This document shows positions 3,191 through 21,678 of a DNA stretch of 21,678 nt, in pieces. Where the stretch lies: positions 2,398-24,075 of the IMG/VR virus record IMGVR_UViG_3300000212_000005. One strand, 5' to 3'. The translations under genes and the position numbers were made by a program. The notes under the pieces are model-generated. The model was not told the origin of the DNA. It saw nothing but the letters and a program-made list of their open reading frames with translations, and did no database searches. This stretch comes from a virus. Within the stretch, counting starts at the first letter, position 1. Every line of letters starts with the position of its first letter.

Positions 3191-3356
3191 AACTTGTACA
3201 GTATGTGGACTTAATTATGAGTACGATTCTTGGGAGTTTAATATAGAATCAGAGAAATTATGTTGGGGTTGTGTTAGTACAATACCTCTACATATACCAG
3301 ATGTTCAAGTAAAAAAATACTTATTAATGAAAAAGGAGAGATATGAGAAAGTGTGA
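3180..3356 (+). CDS. Mini zinc-ribbon protein 4 (58 aa)
   Basis: ATG 3180 overlaps the end of the previous gene; an in-frame GTG at 3171 is an alternative. The product has C6-x2-C9 and C28-x2-C31 and the tail STIPLHIPDVQVKKYLLMKKERYEKV, the same layout as its three neighbours. The last 14 bases overlap the start of the DNA polymerase gene and carry its SD (AAGGAG just before 3343). Coupled expression with the polymerase suggests a replication-time role, but this is inference from position only. Confidence 0.75.
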   Translation: MKTKTCTVCGLNYEYDSWEFNIESEKLCWGCVSTIPLHIPDVQVKKYLLMKKERYEKV

Positions 3357-7569: not shown

Positions 7570-9642
7570 ATGAACCAAGATAAAATATATGAAGATTTAT
7601 TAGATACATTTGGAAAATCTGGTTCTATGTTAAAAGAGAAACCACTACCAGAACATAAATTAGGATTTCTTAGTACTGGTAGTGGTGCTCTTGACTATTC
7701 TTTAGGTGGTGGAATTCCTTATGGTAGATTAACAGAGATATTCGGGTGGCAAAGTACCGGAAAAGCACTACCAAATGATACACCAGTTATGACACCTGAC
7801 GGATGGTCAAAAATATCAGATTTAAAGATAGGTGATTATGTATTTTCAAAAGATGGTAGTAAAACTAAGGTGACAGGTGTATTTAATAGAGGTAAAAGAA
7901 AGTGCTATAATTTTATATTTGATGATGGTTCTGAAATTGAATCATGTGAAGATCATTTGTGGTATGTAAAAGGTAGAAGAGAAAGATTAAAAGAGAAGTT
8001 AGGTACAGGTAAAGTTTCTAAAAAATATGGAACTTATAAAGTTATGTCTACTAATGATATAATTGATTATGGTGGTTTAATACCAAAAGAGAAATATCGT
8101 GTAGAAATACCACTAGTAGAACCTATTAAATTTAATAAACAAAAAGTTAGTATTGATCCTTATTTATTGGGATTGTTAATAGGTGGTGGTCATTTAGCTG
8201 ATTACAAAAAGAAAGATAGTACAGGTAATCAGTGCGTTGTAAAACTAACAACTGCTGACGTAGAAATACCTAAGTTTCTTGGTAGTATATGTAGAAAGGA
8301 TGCTTGTGGTAAGTACTCATATACTATTTCAGGTATGTGTGATAAACTTAGAAATGTTGGTTTGCTAGGTAAGAAATCATATGAAAAATTTGTTCCTAGA
8401 GAATACTTATTTAATAATATTAATGTTAGGTTAGAAATTCTTAGAGGATTAATGGATTCTGATGGTCATTGTTCTGTTAGTGGTTTTATGGAATATAGTA
8501 CAACATCAAAGCAATTGTCAGAAAATGTAAAATTTATTGTTTTGTCTCTTGGTGGTAAGTGTAAAGTAACAAGTAGATACACTTTCTATACGCATAAAGG
8601 AGTTAAGAAACGTGGTAGATTAAGTTATCGTGTTATAATTAATTTCAATAATCTAGTACCATTCAGGTTAAAAAGAAAAGTTGACAGATATAAATTTTAT
8701 AAAAGAGGTTCTAATGGTAGAAGGTTACAAAAAATTGTATCTATTAAGAACAAGAAAGAAGTAACTTGTATATCAGTAGCACATAAAAGTAAACTTTTTG
8801 TTACTAAAGATTTTATAGTAACACATAATAGTATATTTGCTGCAAATTTATTAGCATCTTGTCAGAAGAATGGTGGCGTTGGTATAATGCTAGATACTGA
8901 GAATTCTATGTTATCTGGTTGGTCTAAGAAATTAGGTATAGATGATTCTAAATTGTTAATACTTGATTCTGATTATCTTGAAGATGCTTTTGATAAAATA
9001 GAATTAGCTTGTGAATTTGCTAAAAGGAATAAAGTACCTGCTTGTTTAGTTGTAGACTCATTATCAGTATTAGGATGTAAGAAACAATTTGAAGCTGGAA
9101 AAACAGAAGATACAAAAGCATTAGCGTCAGAAGCAAGGATTGTCTCTACTGCATTAAGAAAAATTAATAAGTTAATATGGAATAGTAAAGTAGCATTGAT
9201 ATTAGTATCTCAAGTAAGAGAAAAAATAGGTATTGTATTTGGTAATCCTGAAACAACACCACATGGTAATGCTGTAAAGTTTTATTCTTCTGTTAGATTA
9301 AAGACAGCTAATACAGGCTTTATACATCCAGAAAATAAGAAATCTGAAGATCCTATTGGTATGAGTTGTAGAGTATCAATAGTAAAGAATAAGATGGATA
9401 GACCACGTAGTCCTGTAGAAGTAGAAATATCTTATTCACATGGTATTGATAAAGTTATGGATACTATAACTTTAGGTATTAAACTTGATAGTATAGTGTT
9501 TCATAAGGGTGGTTTTTTCGAGTACAAAGGTCAAAAGTTAAGAATTAAACAGTTTAAAGAATATTTTAACAAAGAGTTAGAAGACGGTTCTATGTTAAAA
9601 GATATAACAAAACCTAAAGTTGTAGAAGAAGAAAAGAAGTAG
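7570..9642 (+). CDS. recA: RecA recombinase precursor containing an intein
   Basis: ATG 7570 follows AAGGGG nine bases after the SSB gene. The 690-residue precursor is RecA interrupted by a 355-residue intein (residues 66-420). Joined exteins give a 335-residue RecA: N-terminal LGFLSTGSGALDYSLGGGIPYGRLTEIFG, Walker A GWQSTGK+S (the insertion falls between its Lys and Ser), Walker B CLVVDSLSVL, and the DNA-binding loop region with ILVSQVREKIGIVFGNPETTP followed by NAVKFYSSVRL, typical of bacterial RecA rather than T4 UvsX. An acidic/Lys tail ends it. It is somewhat shorter than cellular RecA (about 350). It catalyses strand exchange and pairs with the UvsY-like and gp32-like proteins. Without splicing the P-loop is broken, so activity must depend on intein removal. 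Confidence 0.95.
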   Translation: MNQDKIYEDLLDTFGKSGSMLKEKPLPEHKLGFLSTGSGALDYSLGGGIPYGRLTEIFGWQSTGKALPNDTPVMTPDGWSKISDLKIGDYVFSKDGSKTKVTGVFNRGKRKCYNFIFDDGSEIESCEDHLWYVKGRRERLKEKLGTGKVSKKYGTYKVMSTNDIIDYGGLIPKEKYRVEIPLVEPIKFNKQKVSIDPYLLGLLIGGGHLADYKKKDSTGNQCVVKLTTADVEIPKFLGSICRKDACGKYSYTISGMCDKLRNVGLLGKKSYEKFVPREYLFNNINVRLEILRGLMDSDGHCSVSGFMEYSTTSKQLSENVKFIVLSLGGKCKVTSRYTFYTHKGVKKRGRLSYRVIINFNNLVPFRLKRKVDRYKFYKRGSNGRRLQKIVSIKNKKEVTCISVAHKSKLFVTKDFIVTHNSIFAANLLASCQKNGGVGIMLDTENSMLSGWSKKLGIDDSKLLILDSDYLEDAFDKIELACEFAKRNKVPACLVVDSLSVLGCKKQFEAGKTEDTKALASEARIVSTALRKINKLIWNSKVALILVSQVREKIGIVFGNPETTPHGNAVKFYSSVRLKTANTGFIHPENKKSEDPIGMSCRVSIVKNKMDRPRSPVEVEISYSHGIDKVMDTITLGIKLDSIVFHKGGFFEYKGQKLRIKQFKEYFNKELEDGSMLKDITKPKVVEEEKK
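7765..8829 (+). mobile_element. Class 3 intein with LAGLIDADG endonuclease domain
   Basis: Codons 66 (Ala) to 420 (Asn) of the recA frame; the +1 residue is Ser421. The start ALPNDTPVMTPDGW and the end FIVTHN followed by S are intein splice blocks. Residue 1 is Ala, not Cys/Ser. The three residues diagnostic of class 3 are present: Trp131 two after the block B His129, Cys400 in block F (EVTC), and Thr418 in block G (VTHN). Class 3 inteins start splicing from that block F Cys. The middle holds the two LAGLIDADG helices: LLGLLIGGG at 199-207 and LRGLMDSDG at 291-299. The first lacks the catalytic Asp (G206), so the endonuclease is probably crippled. Confidence 0.9.
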
Positions 9643-10350: not shown

Positions 10351-11752
10351 GAGAGATCCTTTTGCTTTTTCTCAGTATATGGCAACTGATTTTGAATGTC
10401 CTCTGTCTAATATGCATCAAGAGTGGCATAGTCATATAACTGATAACATATATACTGTTATTACTTCTCCTAAAGATCATCGTAAAACAACTACAATAAG
10501 TGTAGAGAGATGTTTATGGGAGTTAGGAAACAATCCAGATATACGAATTAAGATTATAAGTCATTCTGATGACTTATCTTGCAAGATATTACAGGAAATA
10601 AAAGGTCATATATCAAAAGAGGGTGGTAAGTTTCATGATATATTTCCAGACATAACAGATGAAGGCGCACCTCTTTGGTCTGCATCTAAAGTTAGATTAG
10701 CTGGTACTCATGTTAGAAAGGATTCATCTATAGAAGCTTGTGGAGTATTAGCTTCTGCTACTGGAGGTAAAGCTGATTTAGTTTTATTTGATGATGTTGT
10801 TTCTTTTAAGAATGCTATTCTTAACCCTAGTATGAGACAACAAGTTATAGATGCATTCTTTGGTAACTGGATGGATATTAAATCTGGTCCAAAAGCTAGA
10901 ATTATATATGTTGCAACACCTTGGCACAAAGATGATTTAACTGCAAAGTTATTAAAGACACCAAAGTTTCAATCTTATAAGTATTTTATAGATGAGGACT
11001 TTACACCAGTTTGGGAAGAACGGTGGCCTAAGGAAGCACTTATAGAAGAATTTAAATTTAGAGGTGCAATATACTTTAATCCAGCCTTTCGTGGATTAAT
11101 GATGTCTGATTTTGATAAAGTATTTAATAAGGATAATATTAAAGCTTGTTGTGTTTCAAGACAAGATATGCCTTATATAGATAATCTAGAAAAATTTATA
11201 GGTGTTGATTTAGCAATAGGTCAAGGTAAATCCTCTAAGTATACTGTACTATTTGGTTTAGCTTTTGATGAAGAGAAGAAAATTAGATATCCTATTGAAA
11301 TACGTAGAGGTAAGTTTTCTTCACCTGATACTGCAAGAGAATTAATAGATATGTATAATGAGGTAGCACCTGTAGCTGCTGTAGTTGAGAATAACTTTTA
11401 TCAACAAGCTATAATAGATTGGTTAGATGATCTACAAGGTGTAGAAATGAACATAGAACCTTTTACTACAGGATCTCAACAGAAGAAAAGTTTAGATTTT
11501 GGTGTTCCTGCTATGGCAACTGATTTTCAAAATGGTAGGTGGGTTATACCAATGGAAGAAGATGAGTATGATTGGGAATTAGAAAAAGGATGTGGTTGTA
11601 ATATTTGTCATTGGATAACAGAACTTCTACAATATCCTTATGGAACATATAGTGATGCTGTAATGGCTTGTTATTTAGCTGTTCAAGGAAGTAAAAAATA
11701 TTCTAATGAAGGAGTTGGTAAAGGTGGATTTGCTAGTTGGCAGATGGGATAA
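10265..11752 (+). CDS. terL: Terminase large subunit (packaging ATPase and nuclease)
   Basis: ATG 10265 or the next codon ATG 10268 follows AAAGGGG at 10254-10260. 495 residues. ATPase domain: a P-loop variant SPKDHRKTT at 68-76, in which the Gly before Lys74 is Arg; Walker B LVLFDD (172-177); coupling motif VATPW (216-220). RNase H-like nuclease domain: GVDLAIGQ with D315, VVENNF with E375, and YSDAVMA with D464 as the likely metal ligands. A Cys-rich stretch CGCNICHW (443-450) lies between the last two and may be a local metal site. It cuts concatemeric phage DNA and pumps it through the portal. Downstream portal starts 4 bases later. The arginine in the P-loop is unusual, yet PR-x-H-x-K-[ST] variants are known in terminases. 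Confidence 0.93.
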   Translation: MMENLTQNSRKLKEHLLSLNLEKIRQRARRDPFAFSQYMATDFECPLSNMHQEWHSHITDNIYTVITSPKDHRKTTTISVERCLWELGNNPDIRIKIISHSDDLSCKILQEIKGHISKEGGKFHDIFPDITDEGAPLWSASKVRLAGTHVRKDSSIEACGVLASATGGKADLVLFDDVVSFKNAILNPSMRQQVIDAFFGNWMDIKSGPKARIIYVATPWHKDDLTAKLLKTPKFQSYKYFIDEDFTPVWEERWPKEALIEEFKFRGAIYFNPAFRGLMMSDFDKVFNKDNIKACCVSRQDMPYIDNLEKFIGVDLAIGQGKSSKYTVLFGLAFDEEKKIRYPIEIRRGKFSSPDTARELIDMYNEVAPVAAVVENNFYQQAIIDWLDDLQGVEMNIEPFTTGSQQKKSLDFGVPAMATDFQNGRWVIPMEEDEYDWELEKGCGCNICHWITELLQYPYGTYSDAVMACYLAVQGSKKYSNEGVGKGGFASWQMG

Positions 11753-11755
11753 TAT

Positions 11756-13219
11756 ATGAGTGAAAAAAATGGTAATGGGTTTCGTGTTTTAGATCATGAT
11801 GGTTCAGAGATATCAATGGACTTTTCAAAAGCATTAAATCTAGTTGGAACTTATTCTGCAAAAGTTGTTGGTGATAAAACTATTCAATTAAGTTCCGATT
11901 TAAAAGATGGTGACGGATTCAGTATTAATCGTGGTTGGAGAGATGACCACAATACAAATTCTCAGGCTTGGTCGTATTCTTCTCAGAATATGGAGAGAGA
12001 TTCTCTTTTATCTTTTGATACATTAAGAGAGATTTATAGAAGAAGTTCTCATGTTAGACCAGCAATAGATTCAATAGTTAAAGAAGTAGCACATTTACCT
12101 ATAAGGGTAGATGGTAAAAAGAGTAGTGTTAAAGCTGTAGAAGAATTTATAAATAGACCTAATATATCAAAAGAGACATGGCCTAGTATTATACAGAAAT
12201 TTCTTACTGATTTGTTAGTATTAGATCAAGCTGTTATTGAAAAAGTAAGAAGTATAAATGGTAATATTGTAGAAATATATGCTCGTGATGCTACACAGTT
12301 TAGACCAGTTCTTGACTCTTCACGTTCATACATAACATATTTTAAACAGATACTAACTGACAGAGCAGGTAAGGAAAGATTAGTAATACCTCATAGTGTT
12401 GATGATATTATATGGACAATACAATTTCCAAGAACTTATTCATCTTATGGTACACCTATAATAGAAACAATTACAAATGAAGTATCTGCTTTAATGTATT
12501 CATCTCAGTCTATAGCTAAACATTTTATAGATGATGAAATACCACCTGGAGTTTTATATCTAGAGCAGATTGGTAAAAAGGCTTATGAAAGAGCTAAAGC
12601 ACAGTTTGAAGCAAGTAGGGGTGAGGGTGGAAAAAGACAATTAAAAGTATTAGACAATGTTGGTAATGCTGGATGGATAGATTTCACAAGGCCTTTTAGG
12701 GAAATGCAGTTAGCAGAATTAACACTTATTATTCAGGAAACAGTTAATAGAAATTTTGGAGTATCTTCTGTAGATTTAGGTAATGCTGATGGACTAACAA
12801 GATCAACAACTGATGCATTATCAAAGAATACAAAATCAAAATTATTTAGACCTTTAGTTAATCTTATAACATTAAAATTAAACAATGAACTAATAAGAGA
12901 AATTGCACCAGATGCTTCTTTAAGATTTGTGATAGATCCTGTTGTTGATGCTAGTACTGGTAAGGAATTAAGTGATGCTGGAATTATAACAAAGAATGAA
13001 GCAAGAAAAGTTCTTAACTTTGATCCAGTACCAGGTGGGGATAGGTTAGCCGTGAGAATTGGTAATCAATATCTTGTATTAGATGACATGGGTATGCCTA
13101 ATGGCATGTCAGATACAAATACATCAGATGCCAGTTCTACAGTTGATAAAGATAAGAACTCAGTAGATGAACAAACTATTGAAGATGCAGAAACTAAGAA
13201 GAAAAAGAAAGTTGTATAG
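11756..13219 (+). CDS. Portal protein
   Basis: ATG 11756 lies 4 bases after terL; the SD is weak (GGGA). 487 residues, normal for portals. Typical portal pieces are seen: the wing-entry helix DTLREIYRRSSHVRPAIDSI, the following VKEVAHLPIRV, the DDIIWTIQFP and YGTPIIETI segment, then LEQIGKKAYERAKAQFE, and the clip/stem region with NRNFGVSSVDLGNADG-type sequence before a long helix. The C-terminal 60 residues are low-complexity (Asp/Ser/Thr, then a run of Lys). It forms the dodecameric ring at the head vertex to which terminase and connectors bind. It is directly followed by the first copy of the repeated leader. Confidence 0.88.
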   Translation: MSEKNGNGFRVLDHDGSEISMDFSKALNLVGTYSAKVVGDKTIQLSSDLKDGDGFSINRGWRDDHNTNSQAWSYSSQNMERDSLLSFDTLREIYRRSSHVRPAIDSIVKEVAHLPIRVDGKKSSVKAVEEFINRPNISKETWPSIIQKFLTDLLVLDQAVIEKVRSINGNIVEIYARDATQFRPVLDSSRSYITYFKQILTDRAGKERLVIPHSVDDIIWTIQFPRTYSSYGTPIIETITNEVSALMYSSQSIAKHFIDDEIPPGVLYLEQIGKKAYERAKAQFEASRGEGGKRQLKVLDNVGNAGWIDFTRPFREMQLAELTLIIQETVNRNFGVSSVDLGNADGLTRSTTDALSKNTKSKLFRPLVNLITLKLNNELIREIAPDASLRFVIDPVVDASTGKELSDAGIITKNEARKVLNFDPVPGGDRLAVRIGNQYLVLDDMGMPNGMSDTNTSDASSTVDKDKNSVDEQTIEDAETKKKKKVV

Positions 13220-13230
13220 AAGTAATAAAA

Positions 13231-13312
13231 ATTAAGGGCTAGAGTAGATCGCTCGAAAGCTACATTCCTAGTAGTCGCCCTTATACATTTTCATAGGAAA
13301 TTATTCAAGGAG
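13231..13312 (+). promoter_or_regulatory. Structured 5' leader, copy A (before HNH gene)
   Basis: About 82 bases that recur at 16080-16162. Proposed structure: stem TAAGGGC (13233-13239) with GCCCTTA (13277-13283); inside it a hairpin GCTAC (13259-13263) with GTAGT (13271-13275) and loop ATTCCTA; the loop bases TTCCTA can pair with TAGGAA at 13294-13299, just before the SD AAGGAG (13307-13312), making a pseudoknot. No T-tract is present, so it is not a terminator. Known riboswitch signatures were not recognised. Confidence 0.7.
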
Positions 13313-13318
13313 AATAAT

Positions 13319-13879
13319 ATGAACAAAGAAGATAGAGTAAAAGAATTAATTGCTTGTTGTCGTATGAAAGATGGTAGAAGATTTTGTAGTTTTTCAATAA
13401 TACATGATGGAGTAAAGTATTATGCTTCTGTTATGTTAGCTAAATCTATTTGGAATCTTTATAATCCAGATAATAAAGTAGTTTACGGTGATGGTTGCGT
13501 TATACATCATATAGATGGTAATAAATTAAATGATAATATTAGTAATTTAATAAAATTAACTAGAAAAGAACATGGAATTTGGCATAGTACTGGTAAAAGA
13601 AATGCTATGTATGGTAAAGAAATAACAAATGAGCATAGGAAGAATTTATCTTTATCACGTACAGGAGAAAAGAACCATATGTATGGAAAATTTGGTAAAG
13701 ATGCTCCTAACTATGGATTAAAAAGATCTAAAGAAACAAAAAATAAAATATCTAAAGCTGTGAGTGGTGAAAGCAATTATAATTATGGTAGAAAATGGTC
13801 AAATGAAAGAAAAGATAGACATTCTATTATGCTAAAAGAATCGTGGAAAAAAAGAAAATTACAAATTGTTAAAAATTGA
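13319..13879 (+). CDS. HNH homing endonuclease with NUMOD3 repeats
   Basis: ATG 13319 with AAGGAG at 13307-13312 supplied by the repeated leader. 186 residues. The HNH nuclease motif is VIHHIDGNKLNDNISNLIKLTRKEH (about 61-85, with His-His, Asn and His ligands/catalytic residues). It is followed by DNA-binding NUMOD3-type repeats with the pattern G-x2-N-x-MYGK / NYG / YNYGRKWS and Lys-rich helices. This layout is standard for free-standing phage homing endonucleases, which cut a matching site in phages lacking the gene and spread by repair. It stands between portal and protease genes without breaking either, so it is an intergenic insertion, not an intron. Its end overlaps the next gene by 14 bases. 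Confidence 0.92.
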   Translation: MNKEDRVKELIACCRMKDGRRFCSFSIIHDGVKYYASVMLAKSIWNLYNPDNKVVYGDGCVIHHIDGNKLNDNISNLIKLTRKEHGIWHSTGKRNAMYGKEITNEHRKNLSLSRTGEKNHMYGKFGKDAPNYGLKRSKETKNKISKAVSGESNYNYGRKWSNERKDRHSIMLKESWKKRKLQIVKN

Positions 13880-14747
13880 TTCTTATTATTTAAAACAGAA
13901 ACAATCCTTACCATTACAAGCTAAGATTATGTTTTCTGAAAGACGTATTGAAGAATTTTATAGGCATTATAATGGAAAAGTATATGTATCATTTTCAGGT
14001 GGTAAAGATTCTACTGTTCTTTTAGATATAATTAGAAAGAAATATCCTAATACTAAAGCTATGTTTTTAAATACTGGCTTAGAGTATCCAGAGATTATTA
14101 AATTTGTAAAAAGTGTAGATAATGTAGTTTGGGTAAAACCTAAAATGAATTTTAAAGAAGTATTAAATCATTATGGTTATCCTATTGTATCTAAAGAAGT
14201 TAGTCAAAAATTATTTGAAGTTATAAATACAAAATCTGATAAGTTAAGAAACAAAAGATTATATGGTGATAAAAATAAGTCAGGTAAAATACCAGAAAAA
14301 TGGAAGTATTTAATAAATTCTAATTTTAAAATAAGTTATAAGTGTTGTGATGCATTAAAAAAATGGCCTTCACGTAAGTTTGAAAAAGAGTATGGATTAT
14401 TACCGTTTATAGGAACTATGGTTTATGATAGTGCTTTAAGAAAACAGAAGTATTTAAGAAAAGGTTGTAATATTTTTGATGGTAAAAAGAAAGAATCATT
14501 ACCTTTATCTATTTGGTTAGAAAAAGATATTTGGGAATACATTAAATTAAATAATTTAAAATATTCTAGTATATATGATATAGGTTATAAAAATACAGGT
14601 TGTATGTTTTGTATGTTTGGTGTTCATTTAGAGAAACCAAATAAATTCCAGATTATGAAAAAAACTCATAATAAGTTATATAAATATTGTATAAGTAATT
14701 TAGGTATTGGTAAAGTTTTAGATAAAATAGGAGTTAAATATGGGTGA
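13866..14747 (+). CDS. PP-loop (PAPS/APS reductase-like) protein with Fe-S cysteines
   Basis: Read from TTG 13866; SD is weak and no nearby ATG exists before 13929, so the start is uncertain. 293 residues. The PP-loop SFSGGKDS (42-49) binds and activates a nucleotide (adenylyl chemistry), followed by FLNTGLEYPEI typical of PAPS reductase family proteins. Cys160-Cys161 and Cys246-x2-Cys249 reproduce the CC...CxxC pattern that binds a [4Fe-4S] cluster in APS reductases, while the C-terminal ECGLH catalytic motif of true reductases is not seen. It is therefore likely a phage member of the wider PP-loop ATPase group with some sulfur or nucleotide-transfer role rather than an assimilatory reductase. 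It sits as a non-structural gene within the head operon, next to the HNH gene. Confidence 0.82.
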   Translation: MLKIDSYYLKQKQSLPLQAKIMFSERRIEEFYRHYNGKVYVSFSGGKDSTVLLDIIRKKYPNTKAMFLNTGLEYPEIIKFVKSVDNVVWVKPKMNFKEVLNHYGYPIVSKEVSQKLFEVINTKSDKLRNKRLYGDKNKSGKIPEKWKYLINSNFKISYKCCDALKKWPSRKFEKEYGLLPFIGTMVYDSALRKQKYLRKGCNIFDGKKKESLPLSIWLEKDIWEYIKLNNLKYSSIYDIGYKNTGCMFCMFGVHLEKPNKFQIMKKTHNKLYKYCISNLGIGKVLDKIGVKYG

Positions 14748-15075
14748 TGTTTATAGGGGTTCTGGTTTAAGTAGTTTATTAAATTCTAAAATAGATTCCA
14801 AAGTATCTGATACTAAGTCAAAAGGCGATATAAAAGATTCTATGGGTAAAGCTGCTGGTATATCATCTGCTACTGTTAATAATATACTGAGTGGAAATAT
14901 TAATTGTCCACCTATAGAACGTCTTAGCGGTTTTGCTAAAGTATTAAATGTAAGTTTAAAAAGTTTAAAGGATGCTGCTAAACGTGATGGTTGTAAGTAT
15001 TCTGATGAAAGATCTATTTGTGAATTTACTAATCCAATTGATAAATTAGATTTTATTTTAGGTATTGAGAGGTAA
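14740..15075 (+). CDS. XRE/Cro-type helix-turn-helix protein in the head operon
   Basis: ATG 14740 with AGGAG at 14729-14733; overlaps the previous stop. 111 residues. After a Ser-rich N-terminus comes a Cro/CI-like HTH: IKDSMGKAAGISSATVNNILSGN, then INCPPIERLSGFAKVLNVSLKSLKDAA. The C-terminal part (ERSICEFTNPIDKLDFILGIER) is separate. It could regulate late genes, but HTH proteins at this place in head operons of low-GC phages may equally serve as DNA-binding morphogenesis factors. The gene is followed after 3 bases by 15079, so they are one transcription unit. Confidence 0.75.
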   Translation: MGDVYRGSGLSSLLNSKIDSKVSDTKSKGDIKDSMGKAAGISSATVNNILSGNINCPPIERLSGFAKVLNVSLKSLKDAAKRDGCKYSDERSICEFTNPIDKLDFILGIER

Positions 15076-15078
15076 TTT

Positions 15079-16077
15079 ATGGGATATAAGTTTTTAAAAG
15101 AACAGTATGAAAAACTAAATAGGGATGCATCTGTATACGAAGAAGTTGATGAGGAGATGCCTGACACATTTGATCTAAGTGCTAGTGTTACTGTTGCTGA
15201 TTTAGATGATGCTGAGTTACTTTTTAGAGAATCTATAATTAAAGCATTTTATGAAATTACTGTAAGAACTGGTAAACATGTTTATGGTTACAGTAAAGAA
15301 GATTTAGAGAAAATGCAAAATGAAATTATAGAGGAGTTTGAACAAAGAGGTAGAAGATATGATGTTCCTCTAGATAGAAGTGGTAATGGATGTGACATAA
15401 AGAGGGGTAAGGATGGAGCACCTGATATTGGAAATGCACCTAAAGAAGCTAAGAGTATTGTATCTAAAGCATATAATAAGTGTATAGAAGATAGAAGTAA
15501 TAAGAAACCTAGTGATGTAGATAACAACTCTACACAGTCTGCTTGTACAAATGTTGCTATGAAAGCATTAACAGATGCTGGTTATGGTATTGATAATGAT
15601 GGGGAATGGAAAAAGAGAAGTGTGTCTAAGACTAAACAGTTTTTTAGGTTTATTACAGATCCAGAAGTTAGACTAAGACAACATGATTTTGAAACTGGTA
15701 AGTGTGAATATTGTCAGTATTTTCATGATATGAGATGTAGAGTACTAGAACATATGGTATCTGCTGAACAAGTTTGTGACGCATATTCAGGTGGTTATTA
15801 TTTCTCAGATGATAGTGGTACACGTAAGTATACTATTGAAAATTTTAACAAGTTTATAAGGGGTCTTGTTGACAATAAAATATTACAAAATACTGTTATT
15901 AGAAGTTTAGATACTCCTGTTGGTATTCTTATTATATTTAAAGATAATATGAAACCTGATCCACATTACTTCTCTATATCAGTTGGTGAGTTCATTGAAA
16001 GTACAATAAGTAAGAACCATTGGATGCAATCGGAGGTGGATGCGATATCTAATACAGGTGGATTCATTAACGAGTAA
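15079..16077 (+). CDS. ChaB-like and Cys-motif head-operon protein, 332 aa
   Basis: ATG 15079 with GAGAGGT upstream. N-terminal 1-110 is acidic and helical. Residues about 115-180 (DIGNAPKEAKSIVSKAYNKCIEDR... then ACTNVAMKALTDAGYGIDNDGEWKK) resemble the ChaB fold seen in phage head proteins. Then a four-cysteine motif C209-x2-C212-x7-C220-x12-C233 (CEYCQYFHDMRCR...VCDAYSG) resembles the high-potential iron-sulfur-like or zinc motif common in phage head-operon proteins. The C-terminal 100 residues (IRSLDTPVGILIIFKDNMKPDPHYFSISVGEF) form a beta-rich domain. The domain labels are by eye and moderate in certainty; the role is unknown, though position between portal and protease implies head assembly. 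Confidence 0.65.
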   Translation: MGYKFLKEQYEKLNRDASVYEEVDEEMPDTFDLSASVTVADLDDAELLFRESIIKAFYEITVRTGKHVYGYSKEDLEKMQNEIIEEFEQRGRRYDVPLDRSGNGCDIKRGKDGAPDIGNAPKEAKSIVSKAYNKCIEDRSNKKPSDVDNNSTQSACTNVAMKALTDAGYGIDNDGEWKKRSVSKTKQFFRFITDPEVRLRQHDFETGKCEYCQYFHDMRCRVLEHMVSAEQVCDAYSGGYYFSDDSGTRKYTIENFNKFIRGLVDNKILQNTVIRSLDTPVGILIIFKDNMKPDPHYFSISVGEFIESTISKNHWMQSEVDAISNTGGFINE

Positions 16078-16079
16078 GA

Positions 16080-16162
16080 ATTAAGGGCTAGTGCCTATAA
16101 CACGAAAGCTACATTCCTAGTAGTTGCCTTTATACATTTTTTATAGGAAATTATTCAAGGAG
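16080..16162 (+). promoter_or_regulatory. Structured 5' leader, copy B (before protease gene)
   Basis: Matches copy A along its whole length except an 11-base block (16092-16102 against 13243-13253) and a few single changes. Stem TAAGGGC (16082-16088) with GCCTTTA (16126-16132) keeps pairing through one G-T; hairpin GCTAC (16108-16112) with GTAGT (16120-16124) and loop ATTCCTA are identical; TAGGAA (16144-16149) can pair with the loop; SD AAGGAG at 16157-16162. In this copy CCTATA (16094-16099) could also pair with TATAGG (16142-16147), a competing fold. Confidence 0.7.
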
Positions 16163-16169
16163 TATTCTT

Positions 16170-17366
16170 ATGAGTAATAAAGAAGTAAAATTTGATGCAA
16201 ATATTGATGTAAAGAGATTTGCAGATCAAGAAGGTAAATGGATTATAGAAGGAATTGCCACTACTGCTGATCTAGATGTAGATGGTTTATATATTTCTGA
16301 GGAAGCATTGATAGGTGCAGAAGATGATTTAAAGAAATATACTACATTACTTTATAATCATGATAGGGATAAAGAAATAGGTAAGATTATTGATGTTAAA
16401 TATATGCCTGAACAAAGAGCTTTATGGATAAAGTGTTTAATTTCAAAAACTGTTCCTGATATTTGGCAGAAGGTCCAAGAAGGTGTTCTTAGTAAATTCA
16501 GTATTAGTGGTACTGCATTGGATTTTACTGAGAAATTTATTAAAGGTTTAGATAAGGTAGTACAGTATGTAAACCAGATGAAAATATTTGAAACTTCATT
16601 GGTAACAATACCAGCAGATGCTAGTGCAAGAACATTAGCATTTTATGTTGAGAAGTCAATGAAAGAATTTAGTGAGGAGAATAGTATGGCTAATAAAGCT
16701 AAAACTAAAGAAAAGAAGATTGAAAAGAGTCAAGAGGAAACTATTGATAGGGATGCTAAACAACTTGAAATTCTTGTTACTTCTGTAGAAGATGCTTTGA
16801 GTTCAGATGCAGATGGTGTTAAGGTTGACACACTTAGAAGTGTACTTGATTTTTTGAAAGCACTTGAAGCAACATCACCAGATATAACTGAAGATGTATC
16901 TAAAAGTTCAGTTAGTATAGATGATATTACAAAGGCTATTAATGATTCAATAGGTAATCTTATTGGTGAAATTAAAGAAACAGTTACAGCACTTTCAGAA
17001 GTTGTTGTTGATGTATCAAAGTCTAAAGTAGCTGATGAATCAAAGAAGGAAGATATTTCTAAGTCTGTTGATGAGAATAAGTATGAGAAGAAAGAAGATG
17101 AAACTAAAGAAATTTCTAAGTCTGTGGATGAAGATAAAGAAATTCTTGAAATAAGAAAAAGTCTTTCTGATTTGAAAAGTATGATTTCTAATAATCTTCC
17201 TATAAGAAAAGGTGTTGGTTTTGATGAACATAAGGAAGATGAGAGAGATGTTGAGAAGAATTTGAGTGAGAAGGAAAAGTTCTTAAGATCTGATAAATAT
17301 AAAGAAGCAGCACCTGGAGATAAGTTAGGTATGTTGATGGATTTTAATGCATCTCAAGTAAAGTAA
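16170..17366 (+). CDS. Prohead serine protease fused to a scaffold domain
   Basis: ATG 16170 with AAGGAG at 16157-16162 at the end of leader copy B. 398 residues. Residues 1-165 are a prohead protease of the HK97/herpesvirus type: LYNHDRDKEIGKI with His64, VLSKFSISGTA with Ser111, then ETSLVTIPADASARTL as the third conserved segment. Residues about 170-398 are Lys/Glu-rich, coiled-coil and low complexity with near-repeats ISKSVDE (two copies near residues 297-320), ending SEKEKFLRSDKYKEAAPGDKLGMLMDFNASQVK: a scaffold that guides capsid assembly and is then digested. The capsid gene follows 31 bases later. An internal start at 16686 may give the scaffold alone. Confidence 0.85.
   Translation: MSNKEVKFDANIDVKRFADQEGKWIIEGIATTADLDVDGLYISEEALIGAEDDLKKYTTLLYNHDRDKEIGKIIDVKYMPEQRALWIKCLISKTVPDIWQKVQEGVLSKFSISGTALDFTEKFIKGLDKVVQYVNQMKIFETSLVTIPADASARTLAFYVEKSMKEFSEENSMANKAKTKEKKIEKSQEETIDRDAKQLEILVTSVEDALSSDADGVKVDTLRSVLDFLKALEATSPDITEDVSKSSVSIDDITKAINDSIGNLIGEIKETVTALSEVVVDVSKSKVADESKKEDISKSVDENKYEKKEDETKEISKSVDEDKEILEIRKSLSDLKSMISNNLPIRKGVGFDEHKEDERDVEKNLSEKEKFLRSDKYKEAAPGDKLGMLMDFNASQVK
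16686..17366 (+). CDS. Nested in-frame scaffold protein (putative internal start)
   Basis: Within the protease gene, in the same frame, ATG 16686 is preceded by a strong SD GAGGAGA (16674-16680) at 6-7 nt. Translation from it gives 226 residues starting MANKAKTKEKKIEKSQEET, exactly the scaffold half without the protease. In lambda, the scaffold Nu3 is made in this way from inside the protease gene C. The position of the SD at the domain boundary makes the same arrangement likely here, supplying many scaffold copies and few proteases. Confidence 0.6.
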   Translation: MANKAKTKEKKIEKSQEETIDRDAKQLEILVTSVEDALSSDADGVKVDTLRSVLDFLKALEATSPDITEDVSKSSVSIDDITKAINDSIGNLIGEIKETVTALSEVVVDVSKSKVADESKKEDISKSVDENKYEKKEDETKEISKSVDEDKEILEIRKSLSDLKSMISNNLPIRKGVGFDEHKEDERDVEKNLSEKEKFLRSDKYKEAAPGDKLGMLMDFNASQVK

Positions 17367-17397
17367 AATTTAATAAGTTTAATAGAAGGAGATTAAT

Positions 17398-18330
17398 ATG
17401 GGTAATAATTGGCAAAATGAGATTAAGAGGTCTCTTGATTATAGTGCTACAGGTGGTGTTCTTATTCAGCCAGAGGTTGATAAGATTATAGCAGAAATCA
17501 TAGAGTATAAGAATCCTCTTAGACAAAACATTCCAAGGAAACAGAGAAGTTCTGATTCTTGGTTGTTAAATAGGCGTAGTGCTGCTGCTGCAAATACAGT
17601 TGCACAGTGGGTAAGTGATCTTACTGAACCAGATATTGATAGAAGTGAATCAGCTAGGGTAACATTTCAGTTCAGAACATTGCTTGCTAGAGGTAAAGTA
17701 ACAAGGTTTGCACAGGATGCAGGTAGAAGTTATAAGGATTTGCTTTCTGAGGAAATTGAAACAAGGTCTAGGGCTTTCAGAGATAAAGAAGAGTTAGCAA
17801 TGTTTTATGGTGCTACAGCTAATCTTGAGCCTGATGGTTTAAATACACTTATCACAGGTAATCAGAGAATTGCACAGGCTACTACTCTTGGTGGAAGTGC
17901 TTTCACTGTAGCTAAGATGGATGAAACTATTGATGCGTGTGCAGGAGCACCTGATGTTATGATTACATCTAAGTCCGGTAGACGTAAGATTAGTGCTGCA
18001 TTGCAGTCACAACAGAGATGGGTTGACTCAGTAGAAGTAAAAGGTGGGTTTAGGGTTATGTCTTATGATGAGATACCTGTATTTGCATCTACTAATGTAC
18101 TGAATACATTCTATTTTGATGGAACTAATCAGCTTGGTGCTACTGGAAGTACTACTAATATTTTTGTAGTAGATACTAGTGAGTTTTGGGTAGGTTATAT
18201 GAATGATGTAACTGTTACTCCTTTGAGTAAAACCAGTTCACAGTTTGATCAGTTTGACATTTATGCGGATGAAGCTTTTGTGATGCGATCTACTATACAC
18301 CACTCAACTTTAGAAGGTGTAACTGCTTAG
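17398..18330 (+). CDS. Major capsid protein, HK97-fold
   Basis: ATG 17398 with AAGGAG closely upstream (GAAGGAGATTAAT). 310 residues, less A+T-biased in codon choice than flanking genes, as expected for a highly expressed protein. The order protease-scaffold then capsid is standard. Sequence pieces agree with the HK97 fold: GGVLIQPEVDKIIAEII at the N-arm start, a middle segment RTLLARGKVTRFAQDAG, ELAMFYGATA with EPDGLNTLI in the spine/loop region, APDVMITSKSGRRKISAAL, then VMSYDEIPVFAS and a C-terminal beta tail. No long N-terminal delta domain is present, in agreement with a separate scaffold. It builds the icosahedral head. Confidence 0.88.
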   Translation: MGNNWQNEIKRSLDYSATGGVLIQPEVDKIIAEIIEYKNPLRQNIPRKQRSSDSWLLNRRSAAAANTVAQWVSDLTEPDIDRSESARVTFQFRTLLARGKVTRFAQDAGRSYKDLLSEEIETRSRAFRDKEELAMFYGATANLEPDGLNTLITGNQRIAQATTLGGSAFTVAKMDETIDACAGAPDVMITSKSGRRKISAALQSQQRWVDSVEVKGGFRVMSYDEIPVFASTNVLNTFYFDGTNQLGATGSTTNIFVVDTSEFWVGYMNDVTVTPLSKTSSQFDQFDIYADEAFVMRSTIHHSTLEGVTA

Positions 18331-18375
18331 TATTAAAGTACTTATGGTAATAACTTTATTATTACATAATGTATG

Positions 18376-18404
18376 TTTACAAGATTTGTGATCCCTAGTA
18401 TAAT
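18376..18404 (+). promoter_or_regulatory. Promoter after the capsid gene
   Basis: TTTACA (18376-18381), 17-nt spacer (18382-18398), TATAAT (18399-18404): eleven of twelve consensus bases. Predicted start near 18411. The spacer's last 11 bases are the left arm of the inverted repeat 18388-18446. It would drive the surface-protein and tail genes separately from the late promoter. A weak A+T hairpin (GTAATAA at 18347 with TTATTAC at 18359) lies between capsid gene and promoter. Confidence 0.75.
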
Positions 18405-18446
18405 AAGTTTGATATTTAAAATGTTAAATTTTTATCTAGGGGTCAC
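18388..18446 (+). repeat. 11-bp inverted repeat overlapping promoter and leader
   Basis: GTGATCCCTAG (18388-18398) and CTAGGGGTCAC (18436-18446) pair over 11 bp with one T-G wobble. The left arm abuts the -10 box, the right arm lies in the leader about 25-36 bases after the predicted start and holds the GGGG that would act as SD for the mini-ORF at 18450. No T-tract follows. It looks like a two-half-site operator. Confidence 0.6.
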
Positions 18447-18449
18447 ATT

Positions 18450-18485
18450 ATGTTGAAAATTGTAGAATTAGAAAAGAAGATTTAA
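18450..18485 (+). CDS. Possible 11-codon leader peptide
   Basis: ATG 18450 follows AGGGG at 18438-18442 at 7 nt spacing and reads MLKIVELEKKI then TAA at 18483-18485. The next gene (ATG 18505) has no visible SD, so this mini-ORF may bring ribosomes to it by re-initiation. It is in another frame. It may also be chance; there is no coding evidence in so short a frame. Confidence 0.3.
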   Translation: MLKIVELEKKI

Positions 18486-18504
18486 GTATTAAAAAATATA
18501 GAAT

Positions 18505-18930
18505 ATGACACACAAAGCTAGAATGGGACAAATACAAGATACATATCTTGTTGATGAAAATGATAATAATATAGGTTCATTTGAAAGTCCTATTCATGTT
18601 CAAGGAATAGTTGGAATTACTATTACTGTTAGTGTTGATCCTGTAGAGATGACTGATGTTGAAGGATTAGGAGATATATCAGTAGGTACTTCAGAAGTTC
18701 AAATATCTATAACTGGAACACCAACACAAATAATAAGAATACAGGCAGATGATAAAAATACTGGTTTAATATTTGTTGGTAAATCTGGTATATTAAGTGA
18801 TAAAACAAATGATGTGTTTAGGTTAGAAGCTACAGAGGAAGCAATAATTAGTTATAATGATGTTAGTAATGCTTTGTATGCTATAAGTAATTTAGCAGGT
18901 CAAACTATTAATGTTGGGGCTTTATTATGA
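18505..18930 (+). CDS. Virion-associated beta-rich protein, 141 aa
   Basis: ATG 18505 is the first start after an in-frame TAG at 18499; ATG 18523 is an alternative, giving MGQIQDTYLV. Neither has a good SD. The C-terminal part IRIQADDKNTGLIFVGKSGILS...VFRLEATEEAIISYNDVSNALYAISNLAGQTINV follows a pattern frequent in small phage virion proteins (Ile-x-Ala-x3-Asn-Thr-Gly-x-[IV]-x-VG-x-SG, then Leu-x-Ala-x-E, then LYAI). It is therefore probably a head decoration or adaptor-fibre protein. It overlaps the next gene by ATGA at 18927, so translation of the two is coupled. Confidence 0.7.
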   Translation: MTHKARMGQIQDTYLVDENDNNIGSFESPIHVQGIVGITITVSVDPVEMTDVEGLGDISVGTSEVQISITGTPTQIIRIQADDKNTGLIFVGKSGILSDKTNDVFRLEATEEAIISYNDVSNALYAISNLAGQTINVGALL

Positions 18931-19919
18931 GTTTAGTATCATCTATAAGACGAGCTATTAAAATAGAAAGTAGAATTATAAATTCTACTGTTGGTAGTGT
19001 TTTGTTTATAGGTACTGATGGTAAATTACAACAAGACAATTCCAATTTGTTTTGGGATGACACTAATAAAAGGCTTGGAATTGGTACAGATGCACCTGGA
19101 GCACATCTTGAAGTAGAAGACGATACTGATGTAACTGCAATACAAGTATCAAACTCTGCCACAGACGGGGATCCTATACTTGCTTTTGCATTGTCTGGTA
19201 CAAAGATATTCACAATGGGAGTTGATGACGGTGACGGAGACAGCTTTAAGATAGGAACGAGTGCGATAGGTACTAATACACGATTCAGAATAGATAGTGA
19301 TGGAGTGATGTCATTACCTAAATCATCAGGGAAAGGTATTAAAATAGACACTACCACACCAACATTTGGTTGGAGAGATATAACTGGTCAAATTAGAACT
19401 AGGGGTGTTGGTTCTACAGATCCTACTGATGCAGTATATAGGAACGGTATAAAAGGATTTCAATTTGCAGTAAACGATGAGTCATGGATGGAGTTTCATA
19501 TTCCACATGATTATGTTCCTGGGACTGATATTCATATACATTGTCATTGGAGTCATAATGTTACAACTGTTACAGGAGGGACTACAGATTGGTCATTTGA
19601 AATTATATATGCAAAAGGTCATACACAATCTGCTTTTCCTGCATCTGTTACTGTAGTTGCACAACAAACAGCAAGTACTACCCAGTATATGCATCTTATC
19701 AATGAAGTGCAAGCATCTGTAAGCGGAGGTTCTGGTACTCAAATAGATACAGATTTAATAGAACCAGATGGTATACTTTTAGTTAGATCATTTTTATCTG
19801 CTAATGCTATGACAGTGTCAAGCGGACCTGTCCCTGATCCATTTTGCCATTTTGCTGACTTGCATTATCAATCAACAAATATAGCCACTAAAGATAAGGC
19901 TCCAAATTTTTATACATAA
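18927..19919 (+). CDS. Tail-fibre or surface structural protein
   Basis: ATG 18927 overlaps the stop of the upstream gene. 330 residues. The N-terminal region has DGKLQQDNSNLFWDDTNKRLGIGTDAPGAHLEV; the piece LFWDDTNKRLGIGT-x2-P-x4-L is a recurrent element of phage tail fibres and related surface proteins. After a linker, the C-terminal domain (about 165-330) contains FAVNDESWMEFHIPHDYVPGTDIHIHCHWSHN, a His-rich beta sandwich signature I have seen in phage structural proteins, and ends DPFCHFADLHYQS. By eye, the stretch 19130-19340 is less A+T-rich than neighbours, which suggests acquisition from another phage. Likely host contact or decoration; not a proven receptor binder. Confidence 0.75.
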   Translation: MSLVSSIRRAIKIESRIINSTVGSVLFIGTDGKLQQDNSNLFWDDTNKRLGIGTDAPGAHLEVEDDTDVTAIQVSNSATDGDPILAFALSGTKIFTMGVDDGDGDSFKIGTSAIGTNTRFRIDSDGVMSLPKSSGKGIKIDTTTPTFGWRDITGQIRTRGVGSTDPTDAVYRNGIKGFQFAVNDESWMEFHIPHDYVPGTDIHIHCHWSHNVTTVTGGTTDWSFEIIYAKGHTQSAFPASVTVVAQQTASTTQYMHLINEVQASVSGGSGTQIDTDLIEPDGILLVRSFLSANAMTVSSGPVPDPFCHFADLHYQSTNIATKDKAPNFYT

Positions 19920-19927
19920 GGGTATTT

Positions 19928-20058
19928 ATGAGAAAATAGATAGTCAAATAGTGAATTTAACATAACTTATAATTAAATTACAGTCAGAAAAAGATTCGTT
20001 GGTTGCTAGTAGAATAGTTGCTAATTTAGAATCTAGAAAGATGGAATTAAATGGATGA
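19928..20058 (+). pseudogene. Decayed small coiled-coil gene
   Basis: After SD AAGGG (19918-19922), ATG 19928 reads only 3 codons to a stop. One base later the frame reads EKIDSQIVNLT, TAA (19963-19965), LIIKLQSEKDSLVASRIVANLESRKMELNG, TGA (20056-20058). Adding one G after the ATG and changing TAA to CAA would restore one 43-residue helical protein with a normal SD. This fits a gene with a one-base deletion and a C-to-T nonsense change. The final TGA overlaps the next gene's ATG. Sequencing error in the first lesion cannot be excluded. Confidence 0.45.
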
Positions 20059-20239
20059 TATAAATTTAGATGTTAATACTATAAAAGAAATACAAGAATC
20101 TAAAAAAGAAATATTATATATTGAAAGAAATATAATTAAATTAGTTACAGGGTTTTGTAATGCAAAAGGTAAAGATGTTAGTAATTATCAGTTTGATAAA
20201 ACTTTTACTAAATTAGAGTTGGTTAATAAAAAGAAATAA
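20051..20239 (+). CDS. Hypothetical protein, 62 aa, helical
   Basis: ATG 20051 overlaps the stop of the decayed frame before it; no strong SD is present, so it may once have been translationally coupled. The product is charged and helical: MDDINLDVNTIKEIQESKKEILYIERNIIKLVTGFCNAKGK..., with a Lys-rich end. There is no transmembrane part or known motif. It precedes the holin-like gene in the same unit. Function unknown. Confidence 0.6.
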   Translation: MDDINLDVNTIKEIQESKKEILYIERNIIKLVTGFCNAKGKDVSNYQFDKTFTKLELVNKKK

Positions 20240-20727: not shown

Positions 20728-21678
20728 ATGTCAAATAAAGCATGGGGAGCAGTTGGACTTACTGGTGGTGGTACTGGTTCATTAGATAGAACTGAGTTAG
20801 ATGGTGATCTACTTACAGATAAAGATTTAGCATTAGTTAATACTACTAATATTCTATATCCATATTGGTTAGATTCAGATAGTGGAGCATCTGAAAGTCC
20901 TCCAACTGTGATATCACCTGATGCTAATGCTGGTACAAAAAGATGGATACTTCAATCAGCACATTTAGATTCTTTAACTCTTGAAAATAAGCTACCTGTT
21001 ACTCAAGGTGGTACAGGTGCTACTAATGCTACTGATGCTAGGTCTAATTTGGGAATAGTAGATAGTGGTGATGATGTAACTTTAGATACTACAAGTTATA
21101 ATTATTTAAGTTTGTCTGGTCAAACAATTACGTTAGGTCAAGTAGATATAAGTGATGATACAAATTTAGTAGCTGGTACAGGTGTAACATTAACAGGTGA
21201 TAGTTTATCAGTAGATTATGGTTCTTCATCATCAACTGCTTGTATAGGTGATGATTCACGTTTAAGTGATTCTCGTACTTGTGATAATACTTTTGATAAT
21301 GCTACAACATCTAAAACTAATCTAAGTTTAAATAATGTGGAGAATGTGGCAGTATCAACTTGGGCTGGTACTACTAATATAACTAATGTTGGTACAGTTT
21401 CAACTGGAGTTTGGAATGGTGATTCTATAGGATTGGGATATACTGACGCAAAAGTAACAAGTGTGGCTGGTTCTACTGGTGTTGTTTTAAATTCTGATAT
21501 AGATCATGATCAACTAACAAATTTTGCAAGTAATGAACATTTTACTCAGGCTAGTATAACTGCAACTGGAACTATAGCAACTGGAGTTTGGAATGGTGAT
21601 TCTATAGGATTGGGATATACTGACGCAAAAGTAACAAGTGTGGCTGGTTCTACTGGTGTTGTTTTAAATTCTGATATA
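20728..21678 (+). CDS. Tail-fibre protein, 3' end missing
   Basis: ATG 20728 with AAAGAGGT upstream (20713-20720); the frame stays open to the last base (317 codons), so the gene continues beyond the window. The N-terminus MSNKAWGAVGLTGGGTGSLD and the element VTQGGTGATNATDARSNLGI are frequent in phage tail fibres, as are repeats of the type NVGTVSTGVWNGDSIGLGYTDAKV. Low-complexity Gly/Ser/Thr/Asn beta composition also fits. The 3' part has a 177-nt repeat (see 21401-21678). It probably forms trimeric fibre shafts that reach the host surface. The receptor-binding tip would be downstream. Confidence 0.85.
   Translation, partial: MSNKAWGAVGLTGGGTGSLDRTELDGDLLTDKDLALVNTTNILYPYWLDSDSGASESPPTVISPDANAGTKRWILQSAHLDSLTLENKLPVTQGGTGATNATDARSNLGIVDSGDDVTLDTTSYNYLSLSGQTITLGQVDISDDTNLVAGTGVTLTGDSLSVDYGSSSSTACIGDDSRLSDSRTCDNTFDNATTSKTNLSLNNVENVAVSTWAGTTNITNVGTVSTGVWNGDSIGLGYTDAKVTSVAGSTGVVLNSDIDHDQLTNFASNEHFTQASITATGTIATGVWNGDSIGLGYTDAKVTSVAGSTGVVLNSDI
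21401..21678 (+). repeat. 177-nt period repeat in tail fibre, 101 nt exact
   Basis: Bases 21401-21501 and 21578-21678 are identical over all 101 bases, offset 177 nt (59 codons). The second copy is cut by the window end, so the identity may extend and more copies may follow. Exact identity shows a very recent duplication or ongoing correction between copies. Confidence 0.9.

Follow-up and report, generated by a model that had tools for sequence, protein, structure and literature searches.

A candidate structured RNA leader of an HNH homing-endonuclease gene, with a second copy before the prohead protease gene of a marine phage

Introduction

Homing endonuclease genes need to be expressed without harming the operon that they have invaded, and a structured RNA beside an HNH-domain gene is known in HEARO (HNH endonuclease-associated RNA and open reading frame). 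In T-even phages and their relatives, RNA structure has been reported to sequester the ribosome-binding site (RBS) of several homing endonuclease genes (I-TevI, I-TevII, I-TevIII, segB, and mobE of Aeh1; PMC2988022), and such structure is known to restrain T-even homing genes (PMC2988022; PMC3014915). A structured phage leader is also described for gene 32, where gp32 binds a pseudoknot whose T2 form was solved by nuclear magnetic resonance (PMC3014915). Here we analyze a leader that occurs twice in a stretch of 21,678 nucleotides, hereafter the window, which spans positions 2,398 to 24,075 of the IMG/VR virus record IMGVR_UViG_3300000212_000005. The source is a marine tailed phage, and the window forms part of its genome (record of 24,075 bases). 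One copy of the leader precedes an HNH endonuclease gene and the other a prohead protease gene. We consider it an even chance that the repeat is the intercistronic mRNA leader of a free-standing HNH homing-endonuclease cassette, which acts as RNA and has once spread without its gene.

Results and discussion

The leader occurs twice in the window

The two copies and the genes behind them are:

13231..13318, + strand: leader copy A, whole, between the portal stop codon (13217-13219) and the HNH start codon (13319)
13319..13879, + strand: HNH homing endonuclease gene (HNH_3 and NUMOD3 by Pfam; nuclease activity predicted), the regular partner of the leader
16080..16162, + strand: leader copy B, between g332 and the prohead protease gene
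16170..17366, + strand: prohead protease gene (Peptidase_S78), behind copy B

The copies are identical at 70 of 81 positions (alignment columns 3-83, with gap columns counted as mismatches) and make up the second-longest direct repeat in the window (66 nt ungapped, 85%). Their sequence and coordinates are as reported in a preliminary description of this DNA. Both near-identical leaders end in the Shine-Dalgarno sequence (SD) of the following gene, and all the elements named there are present: the closing stem TAAGGGC/GCCCTTA (GCCTTTA in copy B, which turns one G-C into G-U), the inner hairpin GCTAC/GTAGT, its loop ATTCCTA, and the TAGGAA box. A 21-nt core pattern (up to 3 mismatches) matches copies A and B only, and none of 100 shuffled sequences matches it. 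We found no third copy in the window, neither before the capsid gene nor elsewhere; a gapless pattern check for such a copy recovered copy A only (B carries one extra T). Two records of this phage type, of 66.7 kb and 38.9 kb, contained no further copy; the first of them ends shortly past copy A and could not show copy B.

A counterpart of the leader is found in another phage lineage, represented by the contigs L067 and L066. Copy B matches the L067 leader at 69 of 81 positions, about as well as it matches A, and its second stem (P2, see below) is closer to that of L067 than to that of A, so that B was probably not copied recently from A. The notion that the similarity of the two copies reflects nothing but a recent duplication is thus unlikely.

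The leader accompanies the HNH gene

The leader lies directly upstream of the gene in 10 of the 10 HNH homologues found (8 window-type contigs, L066, and L067), which, given that L066 and L067 are near-identical, amount in effect to two lineages. The search of viral contigs for these homologues used two N-terminal peptide patterns and may have missed distant ones. Pfam identifies only HNH_3 and NUMOD3 in the protein. In ten relatives whose portal gene is not followed by this HNH gene (L017, L065, L068, L069, L070, L071, L073, L074, L075, and L156), a covariance model finds no leader at the locus, and its best matches there (at most 16.6 bits) are located elsewhere. The bases of the junction were read in L017, L065, L068, L069, and L071, whereas L156 was assessed from its list of open reading frames and the other four from the match map. 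Several of these relatives resemble one another closely and therefore represent fewer than ten independent lineages. Six contigs whose sequence ends before the junction (L072, L076, L077, L159, L162, and L163) were left uncounted. As far as these sequences tell, leader and HNH gene are present together and absent together. The preliminary description had proposed a cis-acting RNA for late head genes; this framing does not hold, since the leader accompanies a homing endonuclease gene and copy B was inserted before the protease at a place where relatives have no such sequence.

The cassette seems to be mobile. Between the window and L067 the nonsynonymous (dN) and synonymous (dS) divergences, which are rough estimates near saturation, are 0.21 and 0.59 for the HNH gene, 0.24 and 1.39 for the portal gene, and 0.13 and 1.28 for the terminase gene terL. 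The silent divergence of the HNH gene is less than half of that of the portal and terminase genes, and hence the cassette has probably moved between phage lineages. The HNH genes of the window and L067 share 77.6% of their nucleotides, with which the identity of copy A to the L067 leader (65 of 81) is in line. This leader conservation exceeds that of fourfold degenerate sites (18/31, P 0.03).

A predicted three-way junction

The elements of the predicted fold are:

13233..13239, + strand: copy A, 5' strand of P1 (TAAGGGC), pairing with 13277-13283
13242..13245, + strand: copy A, 5' strand of P2 (GAGT), pairing with 13251-13254, in the variable block of the preliminary description
13259..13275, + strand: copy A, P3 (GCTAC/GTAGT), with the loop ATTCCTA at 13264-13270
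13294..13299, + strand: copy A, TAGGAA box, a 6-bp complement of the P3 loop and unproven pseudoknot partner
13300..13318, + strand: copy A, SD hairpin ATTATTC-AAGGA-GAATAAT, with the SD AAGGAG at 13307-13312
16082-16088/16126-16132, + strand: copy B, P1
16091-16093/16101-16103, + strand: copy B, P2
16108-16112/16120-16124, + strand: copy B, P3, with its loop at 16113-16119
16144-16149, + strand: copy B, TAGGAA box
16157-16162, + strand: copy B, SD

The structure was derived from an alignment of copies A and B with the L067 and L066 leaders, which counts as three independent sequences because the last two contigs differ at 3 of 6,810 bases (99.96% identical). The core is predicted to be a three-way junction made of P1 (7 bp), P2 (4 bp), and P3 (5 bp), followed by a hairpin that holds the SD. 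RNAalifold, unprompted, recovers all three stems and the SD hairpin, minus the outermost P3 pair. The 11-base block described as variable does differ between the copies (at 7 of 11 positions) and is itself a hairpin (GAG..CTC in A, GTG..CAC in B). For copy A the junction is the minimum free energy (MFE) fold of the core, at -15.6 kcal/mol; the folding z-scores are -2.02 for copy A and -0.85 for copy B. L067 retains the SD hairpin; in copy B it is partly disrupted.

The fold is kept in the counterpart from a phage whose portal is 69% identical. Two pairs have changed on both sides: one in P2, where A-U and U-A are swapped between A and the other sequences, and one in P3, which is A-U in A and B and G-C in L066 and L067. 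These are all the both-sided changes across the three independent sequences. The losses are the outer P3 pair in L066 and L067, one P2 pair in B, and, in P1, the change of one G-C to G-U. Overall, 95.2% of the cells are paired, against 29-57% when the partners are slid, a control biased towards a structure derived from these same sequences. From A to L067, 15 of the 16 core pairs are formed (P = 0.012) and two both-sided changes are seen (P = 0.021), both relative to substitutions placed at random. The three-way junction is therefore likely, though not proven. The earlier proposal of a cis-acting structured leader thus finds modest support in the kept fold, the both-sided change in P3, and the additional third stem, apart from its link to late head genes.

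The pseudoknot suggested between the loop ATTCCTA and the TAGGAA box did not gain support. Six Watson-Crick pairs can form in A, B, and L067, but shuffled downstream sequence matches as well in 980, 672, and 675 of 5,000 cases (13-20%), and the pairing never covaries, being invariant except in L066, where one pair is broken. The SD is an alternative partner of the P3 loop, with 6 bp possible in B and 5 bp in both A and L067 if G-U pairs are counted.

An Rfam scan of the window at the gathering score returned no match, which agrees with the preliminary statement that the leader belongs to no known riboswitch class. With a relaxed threshold around copy A, it gave one chance-like match on the opposite strand (E 0.84). 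Hammerhead and other self-cleaving ribozymes, considered because of a GAAA junction, were dropped as Rfam did not match them. A small upstream reading frame, judged by eye, is not kept in all copies.

Translation start and proposed mechanism

Neighboring genes overlap at several points in the window and are probably translationally coupled. P1 starts 13 nt behind the upstream stop codon in copy A, 4 nt behind it in copy B, and at 0 nt in L067, where the stop lies within P1. The SD follows 23-24 nt past P1 and ends 6-7 nt ahead of the start codon. No terminator-like site was detected between 11700 and 18600 (0, vs 1.3 in shuffles).

We propose that the leader replaces coupling through gene overlap by a separate translation start for the inserted gene, set off from the upstream gene by the fold. 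With the 5' strand of the fold 0-13 nt behind the upstream stop, or containing it, a terminating ribosome would be within reach, and access to the SD would then be set by the fold and by ribosome traffic, which may limit or time the production of the endonuclease. Two pairings are conceivable for the loop of P3 (UUCCUA): one with the UAGGAA box would leave the SD free, and one with the SD itself (AGGAG) would close it; in the predicted fold of copy B the SD is mostly paired. That the leader acts as RNA via the three-way junction is supported but not proven.

Copy B lies in an insertion within a recombined tract

Two further features concern copy B:

16070..16169, + strand: 100-bp insertion relative to L016, containing copy B (edges ambiguous by a few bases)
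15086..17883, strand not applicable: putative recombination tract, from the substitutions between the window and L016

In L016, whose protease is 92% identical, the start of the protease gene overlaps the stop of g332; at this place the window is longer by exactly 100 bases. The hexamer GAGTAA flanks the insertion, being repeated at 16072-16077 and 16172-16177. Copy B is absent from L016, L017, L067, and L069, all four of which have a short overlapping junction; as L017, L067, and L069 share this state with L016, the absence of copy B is probably ancestral. Over 14398-20099, all of the 248 substitutions between the window and L016 fall in the 2.8 kb of 15086-17883, around the insertion, while the 2.9 kb of flank, namely 14398-15085 (688 bases) and 17884-20099 (2,216 bases), are free of substitutions. 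The contig of L016 starts downstream of the HNH gene, and the site of copy A lies outside it. Substitutions confined to a tract around the insertion are what would be expected of recombination with a diverged donor, for example homing with co-conversion, and equally of ordinary homologous recombination. Probably, recombination with a carrier phage brought copy B to the protease junction, or else the copy is the remnant of a cassette whose HNH gene was lost; it would now set the initiation of the protease. A more far-reaching idea, which we hold to be doubtful, is that the structured leader of the homing gene is a self-spreading regulatory module, and that recombination linked to homing copied it into the junction where an essential head gene overlapped its neighbor, which severed the coupling and put the protease under the RNA control of a selfish gene.

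Some relatives differ further in this region: in L156, g332 and the prohead protease form a single fused reading frame (11448-13040, 530 aa), and the g332/protease region also looks short or fused in L068, L070, and L071.

Searches for further copies

The covariance model R1 was built from the known copies and gives them, partly by construction, 100.7-112.6 bits, compared with at most 24.2 bits elsewhere in the records of the relatives. The weak matches in L099 (24.2 bits), L097 (16.6), and L100 (15.9) were rejected, with P1 missing or mispaired or other pairs broken. Broad searches returned the same phage group only. Among viral contigs, one pattern search yielded 9 stretches on 8 contigs, all of the window type. 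Another yielded 42 stretches, of which 33 were new (L018-L050); on visual inspection these were taken for chance matches in unrelated sequence, and R1 matched none of the 8 that were scanned. In a search with 14 stretches, 5 were new and only L082, the contig of L067, was real; in one with 53 stretches, only L127 (the contig of L066) and L082 were real beyond the window type, with L102-L141 scanned with the model and inspected. Seven stretches from genome contigs had a P3 stem of at most 2 bp, and the model matched none of them. Among annotated phages, short matches occurred in 13 records, the best at E 0.07 and each covering no more than 29% of the query, and the HNH protein matched a single Synechococcus phage there (two records, 47.6% over 63 residues). 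A scan of 398 and 198 bacterial genomes from two phyla with R1 found nothing at E 0.001, a weak negative given that just 10 and 21 candidates were scored per listed genome. The many homologues that the preliminary description looked to for support were thus not found in the collections searched. A leader of this kind is not reported in the titles or abstract openings of the literature searched.

Weighing the explanations

Several observations weigh against a leader that acts as RNA and belongs to the HNH cassette. The independent sequences number only three. When the changed positions are held fixed, the two P values given above rise to 0.16 and 0.20; when the substituted positions are kept and the bases randomized, that for kept pairs becomes 0.07-0.31; and shuffles within columns reach the both-sided count in 92 of 500 cases for the junction and 124 of 500 for all helices. 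By energy, the junction is not the best fold of copy B over 90 nt (-11.1 vs a minimum of -17.1 kcal/mol), nor of the L067 core (-13.0 vs -13.9). The SD of copy A and L067 is predicted to be unpaired with a probability of 0.98-1.0, except for its last G. Relative to L067, the leader is not clearly better conserved than the third positions of same-residue codons in the HNH gene (85/115, P 0.39), and a young transfer could therefore explain much of it. A weak promoter-like match (9/12) at 13290-13318 overlaps copy A. Finally, the HNH genes of L175 and L177 are leaderless and either overlap the preceding gene or abut it, so that the leader is no general rule for HNH genes here.

The leaderless genes, from the same phage type, lie at 1321-2019 of L175 and 1255-1845 of L177; a third HNH_3 match is found in a 717-aa frame of L182.

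One alternative is that the leader has no function as RNA and simply comprises the ribosome-binding region and upstream flank of the HNH cassette, hitch-hiking in homing, with copy B a by-product of recombination and the conservation due to recent transfer. The similar divergence of leader and HNH gene from L067, the shuffles within columns that are not exceeded, and the other fold adopted by copy B speak for this explanation, which we take seriously and find somewhat unlikely in view of the two both-sided pair changes in short stems, the unprompted RNAalifold match, and the hypervariability between A and B, most of which falls in one apical hairpin (7 of 9 core substitutions) in which B retains 3 of 4 pairs. 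The unit of about 100 bp could instead be a small mobile DNA element that makes a short target duplication on insertion and brings a ribosome-binding site with it, as the exact 100-bp insertion flanked by GAGTAA and the four relatives without it might suggest. However, GAGTAA is the end and stop of g332 as well as the first protease codons, and since it serves both genes, any tolerated insertion there must repeat it. Besides, the insertion sits within the 2.8-kb recombined tract, only A and B turned up when 7 records of the group were searched at the DNA level, and the model found no convincing extra copy in 15 records, which makes a mobile element improbable.

An operator that senses a ligand or a protein, in which a metabolite or a protein of the phage, such as its own single-stranded DNA-binding protein (SSB), would bind to the junction and pseudoknot and so switch access to the SD, would fit the three-way junction, the possible pseudoknot, the A+U-rich start region, and the two potential partners of the P3 loop, the SD and the UAGGAA box. 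The phage has an SSB gene, and the pseudoknot operator of T4 gene 32 is a precedent (PMC3014915). Yet there is no Rfam match, the leader is confined to a single phage group, the downstream genes are unrelated, and the pseudoknot lacks statistical support; there is little chance, in our view, that such an operator is involved. We regard as very improbable that the repeat is a DNA element, namely a late promoter common to the HNH and protease genes. Its location before genes, the AT-rich TTATACATTTT block, and the one weak sigma-70-like match in copy A (13290-13318) would be in keeping with a promoter, but the block reads TTATGTACATTTT in L067, the window has no third copy before the capsid gene or elsewhere, promoter-like matches are no commoner than in shuffles (33 vs 39.1), and the paired changes would be left without a reason.

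Other features of the window and its relatives

The window encodes PolA, SSB, RecA with an intein, terminase, portal, the HNH endonuclease, a PAPS-reductase-like protein, a helix-turn-helix (HTH) protein, g332 (a 332-aa protein of unknown function), the prohead protease, and the major capsid protein. In DNA polymerase A (3343-5667), a domain of the uracil-DNA-glycosylase superfamily is fused N-terminal to the exonuclease and polymerase domains. RecA (7570-9642) is split by an insert that resembles an intein and has a LAGLIDADG domain; this insert is absent in 8 relatives (about 80% terminase identity, RecA visible), where the match skips from residue 67 to 421. A 128-bp repeat (91%) lies within a tail-fibre-like gene (21374-21678). 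In L017, the place of the window's HNH, PAPS reductase, and HTH genes is occupied by a gene (1328-1945) between portal and g332 for a 205-aa protein with a signal-peptide-like start and an end resembling a PEP-CTERM motif.

Comparison with known systems

If an RNA leader that travels with a homing gene has been left or copied before an essential gene, selfish genes can import regulatory RNA and rewire phage operons; the spread of the leader suggests that the control region of a selfish gene can reach other genes. The presence/absence pair formed by the window-type contigs and L016 makes the effect of the leader directly testable.

Like HEARO, the locus has a structured RNA, here a candidate, beside an HNH-domain gene, but the leader is far smaller and the window has no Rfam match at the gathering score. 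The gene 32 leader, also phage mRNA upstream of an A+U-rich start region, contains a pseudoknot that gp32 binds (PMC3014915); the leader described here has a complementarity of 6 bp that could form one. Closer likenesses are found among homing endonuclease genes. As described for the T-even hairpins (PMC2988022), RNA structure is predicted just upstream of or over the RBS of an operon-embedded phage homing endonuclease gene, and in both lineages the leader is directly upstream of such a gene (HNH_3 and NUMOD3, activity predicted). It differs from these hairpins in that the junction lies upstream, the SD sits in the loop of a weak hairpin, and a second copy stands before a head-maturation gene; an RBS closed in a stable stem is predicted neither in A nor in L067, and it is mostly closed only in B. 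In the T-even class a late promoter within the structure frees the RBS; among the promoter-like matches of the window, which do not exceed those in shuffles, a weak one overlaps copy A. The seg43 hairpin of Aeromonas phage 25, which belongs to a free-standing endonuclease gene, resembles the leader in that a stable fold directly precedes the RBS and leaves it uncovered; it is a hairpin and not a three-way junction, and what the source says of seg43 includes no mention of a leader-only copy (PMC2988022).

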